A DNA stretch of 42,874 nucleotides from Acidobacteriaceae bacterium (GTDB lineage: Bacteria; Acidobacteriota; Terriglobia; Terriglobales; Acidobacteriaceae). The notes beneath the pieces are model-generated. The model did no database searches. It saw nothing but the letters and a program-made list of their open reading frames with translations, and was not told the DNA's origin. Below are positions 33,518-42,874 of the stretch, one piece after another (positions within the stretch are counted from its first letter, which is position 1; every line of letters starts with the position of its first letter). A program made the position numbers and the translations under genes. The DNA lies in contig JASHPJ010000121.1 of NCBI GenBank assembly GCA_030038195.1, positions 1 through 42,874 on the forward strand, in the 5' to 3' direction.

Positions 33518-33682
33518 CCAGCGTCCTGAATCTGAAGTTCGTATCACCAATACACTGTCATCCTGAGCGTAGCAAGCCGCGTTTTTTGCGGCTTGCGAAG
33601 TCGAAGGTCAAAGATCCGCCGTGGCGGAACCTGCGGTTCGAGGCCTTGACTTATGCCACGAACTTTTGATTCACCACACTAG
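33518..33682. mobile_element. TIR element, copy 1 (165 bp, MITE-like)
   Basis: The ends are inverted copies of each other: left CCAGCGTCCTGAATCTGAAG (33518-33537) matches the reverse complement of the right end CTAGTGTGGTGAATCAAAAG at most positions, both continuing with TTCGT. Inside lies a hairpin with arms GCAAGCCGC (33572-33580) and GCGGCTTGC (33588-33596) and a T-rich loop, then a 27-nt block (33601-33627) identical to 41777-41803 in the second copy. No coding capacity. The right terminus CTAG (33679-33682) is shared with the next element. Confidence 0.8.
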
Positions 33683-33835
33683 AAGCTGTTTCATACTAGA
33701 TTCCGGCAGCTTTCAGGCTCTCCCTCAGGGGCTAAAGCCCCAGATTTTACGCGGCTTTTCGCGGTACCCTTCGGCAAGCTCAGGACAGGCTCGAAGCCGT
33801 GCCCTTTCAAAGCCAGATTATGAAACAGCTTGTAG
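33679..33835. mobile_element. Second, different TIR element abutting copy 1 (157 bp)
   Basis: Terminal inverted repeats CTAGAAGCTGTTTCATA (33679-33695) and, reverse-complemented from 33835, CTACAAGCTGTTTCATA differ at one base. The interior includes GGGGCTAAAGCCCC and a CTTCGGCAAGCTCAGGACAG segment, both reminiscent of short intergenic repeats common in Acidobacteria and other environmental genomes (recalled, not searched). No coding capacity. It shares the four bases CTAG with the end of the neighbouring element. Confidence 0.7.
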
Positions 33836-33909
33836 TGGAATCGGTAACTGCACCAACGATCGAGCCATAGCCCCGGAATTAACATTGATCGAATAGAGCG
33901 TGTCAATAC

Positions 33910-40504: not shown

Positions 40505-41698
40505 ATGGCTGATCTCATGTTCAGACGGCGCTGGTGGATTGCGGGCCTGCTGTTTCTGTCCACCTTGTTCAATTACTTCGACCGGCAGATTCTTTCCCTG
40601 GTAAGCCCGCTTCTTCGCGTCGACTTTTCTCTGTCGGCAAGCCGGTACTCGCTCTTGCTGGACGCTTTTCTGCTCGGTTATACATCTCTCCAATTCCTTG
40701 CCGGCTGGCTCGTGGATCGTCTTGGCGCACGAACCGGGTTAATGCTTGCCATGCTGTGGTGGTCGGCAGCCGGAGCGCTCGCAGCCGCTGCCCGGAATCC
40801 GGCGCAACTGGCACTGTGCTTATTTCTGATGGGCGTCGGCGAAGCGGCCAACTGGCCCAGCGCCGTGAAGGCCATTCAAGAGTGGTTTCCCGCCGATCAA
40901 CGTGCCGCGGCCGTGGGCTTTTTCAATGCCGGTTCTTCGGCAGGCGCAGTGCTTGCGCCATTCGTCGTATCCAGGCTGGCGCTGCACTATTCCTGGCGCG
41001 CGGCCTTCCTCAGTAGCGGAGTGCTTGGCTTGTTGTGGGTAGGGCCGTGGAGGTTCTTGTATCGGCGGCCTGGGCACACAGATCAGATCCGGCACGCTCC
41101 ACAAGCTGGCATGGCATTTCTTGCCGATGTCCGTGCCTGGGGAATTATCTTTGCGCGCTTCTTTGCCGACTCCATCTGGTTCTTTTACGTATTCTGGCTC
41201 CCCGATTATCTCTCGCGCGTTCAATCGCTCTCGCTGCGGGCAATCGGCGCAACAGCGTGGATCCCATTTGCCGCTGCGGCGGCGGGAAACTTCGCAGGCG
41301 GCGCGGCGTCAGGCTATCTCATCCGGAATGGGAGACGCACCGTGCAATCGCGGTTAACTGTCATGGCTGCCGCAGCATTTGTCATGTCTGCGGGCGCCCT
41401 GATTCGCTACTGCCACGAGCCCTCCATTGCGATCTCCCTGATCAGCGTCATTGTTTTCGCCTACAGTACGTGGGCAGCCAACGTGCTTACTCTTCCAAGC
41501 GACCTGTTCTCTCCAGCCGCAGTTGCTACCGTTACAGGGACTGCAGGCACCATCGCCGGATTAGGAGGCGTCCTTACCACTTATCTCGCCGGTCACATCA
41601 TCGATCACTACTCGTATGGCCCGGTCTTTGTCGGCCTGGGAATGCTGCCTCTCCTTGCGCTTGGTGTCAGCCTGCTGACCGCAAAATCCAAAGCCTAG
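40505..41698 (+). CDS. MFS transporter, anion:cation symporter family (hexuronate/aldonate type)
   Basis: 397 aa with about twelve hydrophobic helices. The first helix carries NYFDRQILSLVSPLL and loop 2-3 GWLVDRLGARTG, both typical of the ACS family (ExuT, GudP, DgoT); GVGEAANWPSAVKAIQEWFPADQRAAAVGFFNAGSSAGAVLAP is a near-diagnostic stretch. It imports organic anions, most likely a hexuronate or aldonate, with protons. It follows the SDR by 2 bp. Its TAG stop (41696-41698) is formed by the CTAG that is also the left terminus of the TIR element copy 2, so the element begins exactly where the gene ends. Confidence 0.93.
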   Translation: MADLMFRRRWWIAGLLFLSTLFNYFDRQILSLVSPLLRVDFSLSASRYSLLLDAFLLGYTSLQFLAGWLVDRLGARTGLMLAMLWWSAAGALAAAARNPAQLALCLFLMGVGEAANWPSAVKAIQEWFPADQRAAAVGFFNAGSSAGAVLAPFVVSRLALHYSWRAAFLSSGVLGLLWVGPWRFLYRRPGHTDQIRHAPQAGMAFLADVRAWGIIFARFFADSIWFFYVFWLPDYLSRVQSLSLRAIGATAWIPFAAAAAGNFAGGAASGYLIRNGRRTVQSRLTVMAAAAFVMSAGALIRYCHEPSIAISLISVIVFAYSTWAANVLTLPSDLFSPAAVATVTGTAGTIAGLGGVLTTYLAGHIIDHYSYGPVFVGLGMLPLLALGVSLLTAKSKA

Positions 41699-41858
41699 TG
41701 TCTTGAGCCTGAAGTTCGCACCACAAATAAGCTGTCATCCTGAGCAATGTTTGGCCGATTTTTCGGCCAAACAGAATCGAAGGTCAAAGATCCGCCGTGG
41801 CGGGACCTGCGGTTCGGGACTTCAACTTATGCTATGCACTTCAATTACAGGACACTAG
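41695..41858. mobile_element. TIR element, copy 2 (164 bp), between two convergent stop codons
   Basis: Left end CTAGTGTCTTGAGCCTGAAG (from 41695) and reverse-complemented right end CTAGTGTCCTGTAATTGAAG (from 41858) are imperfect inverted repeats with CTAG at both termini. The interior matches copy 1, including the identical 27-nt block 41777-41803, but the hairpin arms are GTTTGGCCGA (41749-41758) and TCGGCCAAAC (41763-41772), unrelated to those of copy 1. The two CTAGs provide the TAG stop of the MFS gene on the plus strand and of metE on the minus strand. No coding capacity; it may also act as a two-way terminator. Confidence 0.85.
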
Positions 41859-42874
41859 GAGCTAGTTGAAACAGGCGCTGCTGCTGCGGAATCACGGAAT
41901 TCCGCCGCAGTGTTGACCATCTTGACTAAAGCCTGCCGCACCTCCGGCCAGCCTCTCGTCTTGAGTCCGCAATCGGGATTCACCCAGAGCTGCTCGGGGG
42001 TCAGAACTTCCAGGGCCTTGTGCAGAAGGTTGGCCATCTCCCCATCCTGGGGGATGCGCGGCGAGTGAATATCGTAGACGCCCGGCCCGATTTCGTTCGG
42101 ATAGCGCACCCGGCGAAAGGCATCGAGCAGCTCCATGTGCGAGCGCGAGCATTCAATCGAAATTACGTCCGCGTCCATCCGGACGATGGAATCGATGATG
42201 TCGTTGAACTCCGAGTAGCACATGTGCGTGTGAATCTGGGTGCGATCCTGAACGCCCGAAGACGCGAGCAGAAATGCGTCCACGCTCCACTGAAGATATT
42301 GCGGCCAGTCGGCGCGGCGCAGGGGAAGACCCTCGCGAATGGCAGGCTCGTCGATTTGGATAATTTTGATTCCCGCTGCTTCCAGGTCCGCGACTTCATC
42401 GCGAATGGCAAGGGCGATCTGCCGGCAGGTCTCTGACCGCGGTTGATCGTCACGCACAAAAGACCATTGCAGAATCGTAACCGGCCCGGTGAGCATTCCC
42501 TTGACCGGCCTGGTGGTAAGGGACTGCGCGTATCGAGCCCAGTACACGGTCATTGGCTGCGGTCGCGATACATCGCCATAGATGATGGGGGGCTTTACAC
42601 AGCGCGAGCCGTAGCTTTGCACCCAGCCATTTTCGCTGAAGACAAATCCTTCGAGCTGCTCGCCGAAGTACTCAACCATGTCGTTGCGCTCGAATTCTCC
42701 GTGAACCAGCACATCGAGTCCGGCTTCTTCCTGGAACTGGATGCAACGTTTGATCTCCTCCTGAAGAAAGCTTTCATAGATTTTTGACTGGATTTTTCCG
42801 GTGCGATAAGCGGATCGCATCTTGCGCACTTCCGCCGTTTGCGGAAACGATCCGATGGTGGTTGTGGGGAATTT
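41855..42874 (-). CDS. metE: Cobalamin-independent methionine synthase (MetE), C-terminal domain, start outside the window
   Basis: The frame is open to the right edge; 339 residues of the C-terminal catalytic domain are visible, starting [20 protein letters not shown], the usual entry to this domain. The zinc site is present: His and Cys in [10 protein letters not shown], Glu in [12 protein letters not shown] and Cys in [12 protein letters not shown]. Also seen are [21 protein letters not shown] and [15 protein letters not shown]. It transfers a methyl group from 5-methyltetrahydropteroyl-glutamate to homocysteine. It is a housekeeping gene with no link to the sugar-use genes and marks the right edge of that region. 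Its TAG stop is made by the right terminus of the TIR element. Confidence 0.96.

Follow-up and report, generated by a model that had tools for sequence, protein, structure and literature searches.

What keeps the two arms of a hairpin paired when all of their letters are replaced? The question is raised by two copies of a short element in a contig of an Acidobacteriaceae bacterium (JASHPJ010000121.1), of which the window, the whole stretch of DNA that was analysed, covers positions 1 to 42,874 on the forward strand. An earlier note, made from the letters of the window, described hairpin arms that differ completely between the copies within conserved flanks including 27 identical bases, took this as conservation of structure rather than of sequence, and offered a structured RNA, a folded single-strand DNA transposition substrate or a hairpin cassette exchanged as a unit. 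Both hairpins were recovered in their places with wholly different, paired arms, and the 27-nt block has the same letters in the two copies (33601-33627 and 41777-41803). Each hairpin is the apex of what we call the frame, 5'-(C/T)GTC-ATCCT-GAGCG ... GTCGA-AGGAT-3', in which the apical hairpin stands between the halves and a GAGC/GTCGA internal loop is bordered by the apical helix and the basal helix ATCCT/AGGAT. The parts of the two copies are as follows.

33518..33682, + strand: outer element of copy 1, with imperfect TIRs of about 24 bp (left TIR match with 3 mismatches); outer ends CCAG on the left (altered from CTAG) and CTAG on the right, the right end reading ...CACCACACTAG
33556..33569, + strand: left frame block of copy 1, TGTCATCCTGAGCG, made up of the tag TGTC, the basal-stem strand ATCCT and GAGC; common to other genomes
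33572..33596, + strand: apical hairpin of copy 1, GCAAGCCGC-GTTTTTT-GCGGCTTGC, arms at 33572-33580 and 33588-33596
33599..33607, + strand: right frame block of copy 1, AGTCGAAGG
33608..33627, + strand: extra insert of copy 1, TCAAAGATCCGCCGTGGCGG, which carries CCGCCGTGGCGG and lies between the frame and the tail ACCTGCGGTT
41695..41858, + strand: outer element of copy 2, with CTAG ends
41733..41745, + strand: left frame block of copy 2, TGTCATCCTGAGC
41749..41772, + strand: apical hairpin of copy 2, GTTTGGCCGA-TTTT-TCGGCCAAAC, arms at 41749-41758 and 41763-41772
41776..41783, + strand: right frame block of copy 2, ATCGAAGG, which is GTCGAAGG with one change
41784..41803, + strand: extra insert of copy 2, TCAAAGATCCGCCGTGGCGG

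Folded as DNA, the + strands of the window hairpins gave z values of -2.58 (copy 1) and -4.37 (copy 2), and 2 of 200 and 0 of 200 dinucleotide shuffles, respectively, folded equally well; the apical hairpin was recovered in these folds and the basal stem was not. The CTAG ends of copy 2 hold the stops of two convergent ORFs (40505-41698, + strand, and 41855-42829, - strand), namely TAG at 41696-41698 and, for the - strand ORF, CTA at 41855-41857. Copy 1 is adjoined by a second inverted-repeat element (33677-33837; 19-nt arms, 95% complementary, 123 nt between), which contains the CCCTTCGGCAAGCTCAGGACAGGC motif in a form akin to the frame.

The source genome is a draft of 4.17 Mb in 153 contigs. 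Searching it with the 27-nt block, as the earlier note had proposed, revealed far more than two copies: 72 places at up to 3 mismatches, with none for the reversed control. The block is tandemly doubled in L072 and L074, whose second units make up 2 of the 72 places. When the frame by itself was searched for exactly, it had 68 places and its control none. In most source-genome copies, several discrete hairpin types sit between the constant blocks TGTCATCCTGAGCG and GAGTCGAAGG, and L067 has only the right part of the frame. Many copies have the extra insert of about 20 nt holding CCGCCGTGGCGG, and others are without it. A perfect stem of at least 5 bp was present in 41 of 64 hairpin inserts from the source genome, compared with 4% of shuffles, 9% of dinucleotide shuffles and 32% of arm swaps between copies, and in 66 of 126 inserts from other genomes, for which the same controls gave 3%, 6% and 8% (only distinct, N-free inserts entered this test, 64 of 89 and 126 of 135, respectively). 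A net 4-bp helix was absent from 5 of 69 distinct source-genome inserts, the 5' part of the insert is unpaired in L037, L038 and L068, and 43-48 of 181 distinct cross-phylum inserts had no helix. These helix counts, and the mismatch and loop counts below, were taken over inserts free of N that follow a left block ending in GAGC and lie outside the Y1 loci L229-L258; the figure of 42 of 44 for the relatives set is biased, that set having been picked partly for visible arms. Thus, the expectation of the earlier note that further copies would keep their pairing holds in part: some arms are unpaired or decayed, and paired stems nevertheless stand well above shuffles and arm swaps.

Since the two window arm types differ completely, they might belong to two unrelated element families, or their pairing might be due to chance. 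This explanation is refuted, and we assign it a probability close to nil, because the same frame, extra insert and TIRs surround many hairpin types, pairing is rare in shuffles and arm swaps, and hairpins are shuffled relative to their flanks. The shuffling was measured on 88 source-genome elements with full flanks (3828 pairs), where hairpin identity correlated with the identity of the two flanks at only r 0.06 and 0.07, while left and right flank correlated with each other at r 0.28. Both flanks were at least 85% alike in 18 pairs, 4 of which had different hairpins (two of the four involve L065); conversely, hairpins were at least 95% alike in 179 pairs, and in 109 of these the right flanks were less than 70% alike. 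The arms in the source genome are mostly replaced as whole cassettes, which together with the promiscuous tip described below supports the exchanged-cassette explanation of the earlier note.

The tip type of copy 1 has 11 exact sites in the source genome, and that of copy 2, taken together with the TTTGGCGC type, has 18. All 29 of these T-loop tips belong to the frame and carry their T run on its strand, although the right block of the one at C47:27247 is degenerate; a search for T-loop tips in other element families yielded none, every one of the 18 and of the 11 sites being within the frame. CCGCCGYGGCGG was strongly over-represented in the source genome (146 and 157 on the two strands, compared with 4 and 5); the CCGCCGCGGCGG and T-loop patterns are self-complementary, so each of their sites is counted on both strands. 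In 8 of 22 sites an outer palindrome had CCGCCGYGGCGG as its apex (p <= 0.03; 20 regions among the matches listed, mostly sites outside the frame), and by eye these apices fall into three families, CCCAGGTC, a CCCATCC-like one and a frame palindrome (L382).

We then examined covariation on the extracted copies, the check that the earlier note had suggested. In nine equal-length copies from G128 (of 11 matches, the other two being shorter), 96.3% of the apical-arm cells were paired, against 28-40% when the partners were slid. Double changes accounted for 26 cells and occurred in 11 of 18 pairs; a single cell was one-sided, and 6 were unpaired. A cross-genome set of 17 sequences gave 96.7% paired cells (30 double, 1 one-sided and 5 unpaired), a figure that is biased because only sequences of the same length whose arms could be seen were picked, and p values overstate independence because the copies are related. 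RNAalifold found the apical helix in both sets and, unaided, the basal helix in the G128 set. For the basal stem, we used a pattern in which AT was fixed on both sides and the three inner pairs were free. By hand count, the free triplets were complementary in 59 of 67 matches, whereas 1 in 64 is expected for unrelated random triplets; the complementary forms were CCT/AGG (53), TCC/GGA (3), TCT/AGA (2) and CCC/GGG (1), and the 8 misses came from G158, G077, G156, G113, G128 (two), G105 (one) and G147 (one). The 8 misses and 4 of the variant matches were gone over again by script. The covariation seen by the earlier note therefore gained ground with more copies and extends to the basal stem, although its original example, the window pair, differs by a whole cassette and not position by position. 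Fold rather than letters appears to be preserved.

Covariation of this kind could also be produced by template-switch (quasi-palindrome) mutation alone, in which an arm is templated by its partner during DNA replication and the fold is not under selection. The great excess of double over one-sided changes, 26:1 and 30:1 in the two sets, is what such copying would give, and a published analysis argues that stems both arise and are kept through template switching (PMC8794818). Near position 54 of L382, moreover, the left half of the frame is followed by a CCGCCGCGGCGG tip and then by the same half in reverse, which makes a perfect palindrome; it looks like a fold-back copy product and was the one case in the loci scanned. 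Within a single cassette class of the source genome, however, 6 changes were one-sided, 1 was double and 2 cells were unpaired out of 126, and pairing in this set was not above shuffles (94 of 500 reached it). Because changes within the class are mostly one-sided, the covariation is one that distinguishes classes and genomes from each other, and individual copies seem to decay once inserted. Template switching also leaves the constant frame unexplained.

A further distinction came from the apical loops. They are biased towards the frame strand, where GNA triloops numbered 51 against 6 of the opposite kind, T-rich loops 57 against 10 A-rich ones (33 of the 57 from the source genome; 24 against 10 without it), and GNNA loops 15 against 1 TNNC. 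Among cross-phylum loci, GNA occurred in 36 and TNC in 2; four TNC loops in the relatives set, all from G005, run contrary to this trend. A C-G closing pair was found in 48 of 51 GNA loops, yet also in 69 of 85 triloops overall, and is not GNA-specific. Template switching can also invert loops, a pattern named in the same publication (PMC8794818), yet the loops keep one orientation, as do the T runs of all 29 T-loop tips. The strand bias points to folding of one strand and disfavours symmetric template switching alone, which we consider unlikely as the sole cause.

As to the form in which that strand folds, GNA and GNNA loops on G-C stems are described as forming extraordinarily stable DNA mini-hairpins (PMC4686876), which favours a single-stranded DNA substrate, so that the folding form is probably DNA. 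The folded single-strand DNA explanation of the earlier note thus gained support from both the loop bias and the loop type. Its structured-RNA explanation, under which the element would be transcribed at the 3' ends of genes as a terminator or mRNA stabiliser with pairing selected in RNA, was weakened. Among 2054 scored positions, we counted 1922 Watson-Crick pairs, 36 G-T, 21 A-C and 75 other mismatches, so that wobble intermediates are rare. The bias between G-T and A-C mismatches, tried as a discriminator of RNA from DNA, was mixed: the source genome had 13/2, as would also be expected from RNA pairing, but the other sets had 18/13 and 5/6. UNCG loops, which are stable in RNA, numbered 9 against 2, with the source genome supplying 8 of the 9, and GNRA loops 8 against 1, in agreement with an RNA, but GNA triloops exceed GNRA by 51 to 8. 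The position of the elements would suit a transcript end as well, 35 of 45 placed source-genome elements lying outside long ORFs and 11 of these between convergent ORFs, a weakly informative count made by simple ORF picking on elements at least 700 bp away from the ends of their loci. In the window, by contrast, Rfam at curated thresholds matched tRNA only and no other family, and neither hairpin is followed on its 3' side by a T run. Taken together, we regard a structured RNA as quite improbable.

The frame is not confined to the source genome. It was present in 16 of 31 near genomes, all of the same genus (the reversed control gave 1 match, in G019), and was not found in the 12 near genomes of other genera. 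When the basal triplets were left free, 14 of the 149 genomes examined from the phylum had it, of which four (G158, G077, G156 and G113) are chance-like by their triplets. In the GTDB collection, the frame pattern was found in at least 119 stretches where less than 1 match is expected by chance (an arithmetic estimate), the records among the matches listed including Acidobacteriaceae, Gordonibacter, Bifidobacterium, Lachnospiraceae, Eremiobacterota, Gemmatimonadetes, Verrucomicrobia, candidate phyla and others. The GAGC/GTCGA internal loop was held fixed in the search patterns, while the first two letters of the tag lay outside them; in 137 cross-phylum matches the tag nevertheless read TGTC in 109 and CGTC in 17 (126 of 137 together). 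Tails differ by lineage, as CTGCGGTT, CCCT or CCCCGTATTTG. Most matches are single; 5 of 80 loci among the matches listed had one + and one - match, always + then -, and L347 and L348 are arranged likewise. IMG/VR contigs held the frame in 19 stretches (L410-L428), several of which have a common composite asymmetric insert, e.g. ATGCCCGAGGGGAGCATGGCGACCCGAGGGC. In L310, L318, L323, L337 and L123, a partial extra left half (GTCATCCTGAGCG or close, plus about 15-20 nt) lies directly 5' of the full frame, a pattern that would arise if new copies inserted next to left halves already present. In L313 and L328, which are separate G005 copies, a common extra sequence starting CCGGGGTCCCC replaces the usual right tail.

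In the source genome, the frame rides inside a TIR element of about 165 bp with CTAG-type ends, CTAG or a near variant standing at the ends of many copies. The TIRs occupy 53 places, and the outer element ranges from about 140 to 170 bp with imperfect TIRs in the source genome and same-genus loci; 7 of 8 of the latter (L356-L362, not L363) combine the TIRs and the frame with differing hairpins. Other outer contexts occur in the source genome itself (L026, L034, L037, L061 and L073). No such TIRs surround the frame in G005 (20 copies), G128 (10) or G138 and G147 (7 together), where the left flank is not conserved and the right one consists only of lineage-specific tails of about 10-30 nt. The hairpin is therefore not a property of the TIR element, as the earlier note had treated it; the frame is a smaller REP-like palindrome that is separable from it. 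In G128 (L329-L338), a partly conserved GGAATT-like block lies 33-46 nt to the right of the frame at a near-constant distance, so that in this genome the element may extend past the frame. Among the relatives read, no empty site for copy 2 was recovered; in the nearest homologue (G006, 81%), the match starts just past the element and runs into the downstream gene, while the other side differs from the window.

We also searched for an enzyme that could mobilise these elements. No transposase was recognised as an autonomous partner with the same ends in the source genome, where IS630 pieces are cut at contig ends of the draft; IS630 with the same ends found no support as a candidate, as the DDE_3 fragments of the source genome carry other ends. 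Three contigs (L349, L350 and L351) start within the same IS630-like DDE_3 gene, so this repeated IS interrupts the draft. A classical REP with a RAYT (REP-associated tyrosine transposase) of its own as mobiliser would agree with the REP-like size, the palindrome and the single-strand features, and a Y1_Tnp match was present in 17 of 22 motif-bearing genomes (76 matches in all). RAYT genes are often bordered by their own REPs (PMC6006769). However, only one of the 30 fetched Y1/RAYT loci held a credible frame (L229; L232 fits a relaxed pattern poorly), and the other five motif-bearing genomes, several of them drafts, had no Y1_Tnp match. The flanks argue in the same direction, one Y1 gene of the source genome (L108, 1472-2000) being flanked not by the frame but by repeats of the GTGCCCCAGGTC-hairpin-GACCTGGGAAAGCAC type, and we consider a dedicated RAYT very unlikely. 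The tips of the L108 repeats vary too, one having CCGCCGCGGCGG, and the gene with its repeats resembles the TIR-associated transposases reported for Acidobacteria (PMC3733652). In L107 (1501-1864), an IS200-like Y1 match extends over two frames (profile 1-95 and 91-121), the result of a broken gene or an assembly error. CGTC REPs are described as having no dedicated transposase (PMC3733652), with which the rarity of the frame at Y1 loci agrees.

On balance, we lean towards a REP-like palindrome whose fold would be recognised in trans as a single-stranded DNA hairpin. In this model, the frame strand would fold as single-stranded DNA, and the fold, the tag and the internal loop would be recognised by an enzyme acting in trans during copying or moving, so that the letters of the arms may be free so long as pairing persists. 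Carriage inside the TIR element of about 165 bp could account for the many copies with conserved flanks, and whole tips may be swapped between copies through recombination or template switching. We further propose, as a tentative and somewhat doubtful extension, a cross-phylum class of minimal mobile single-stranded DNA hairpins with a fixed frame, including the covarying basal stem and the GAGC/GTCGA loop, and an interchangeable tip. The CCGCCGYGGCGG-type tips, which in the same genome also stand at the apex of unrelated hairpin families, might then form a second nested layer of spreading palindromes, and one broadly distributed single-strand enzyme or replication process might move both. The 2013 survey (PMC3733652) left two questions open for CGTC REPs: how they are mobilised without a transposase, and whether repeats of this sort are still arising. 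The constant part of the cross-phylum frame is a predicted binding site and hence a handle for bait experiments, and arms that are free but paired allow selection for folding to be told from template-switch mutation. They also carry a warning, namely that strong covariation alone need not imply a functional RNA.

CTAG/TA-ended MITEs have an IS630-type target, and the outer element is like them in being short, with TIRs, CTAG-type ends and many copies; it differs in that no autonomous partner was found and the IS630-like DDE_3 fragments have other ends. The attC sites of integrons act as folded single strands in which conserved parts enclose a terminal stem that varies. The element resembles them in its variable terminal stem, while the letters of the frame are, by look alone, unlike attC cores. 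In the open-licence literature, as represented by text without figures, no description of the element was found by topic or by sequence letters; the papers matched by letters are, to judge by title and the opening of the abstract, on other subjects. The element is like GTAG REPs, RAYTs and REPINs (PMC6006769; PMC3733652) in being a short palindrome with likely single-strand processing, and hairpin-bulge-hairpin forms are described among them. Here, however, the tag is (C/T)GTC with no GTAG or GTGG 5' of the hairpin, GTAG occurring inside the frame in some copies only, and apart from the single credible case none of the 30 Y1 loci has the frame beside its gene.

The closest likeness is to the CGTC/TGTC-tagged REP super-family of Di Nocera et al. 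2013 (PMC3733652). Shared features are the unpaired (C/T)GTC tag, the AT-starting basal stem with complementary stem variants, the absence of a flanking transposase gene (here examined for the Y1 class), and a mostly intergenic location in several phyla, sometimes within larger palindromes. The published repeats have a stem of 8-9 bp, a loop of 4-5 nt and a 3-nt tail that is mostly CCA; they are predominantly head-to-head dimers, and their tag may also be CCTC. In contrast, the present element has a 5-bp basal stem, the GAGC/GTCGA internal loop, an apical stem that varies freely up to 15 bp, and its own lineage-specific tails instead of CCA. With the tag, the AT stem and the stem variants in common but another stem length, loop and tail, the element works like a REP and is a variant of that kind, but does not strictly belong to any of the four published families.
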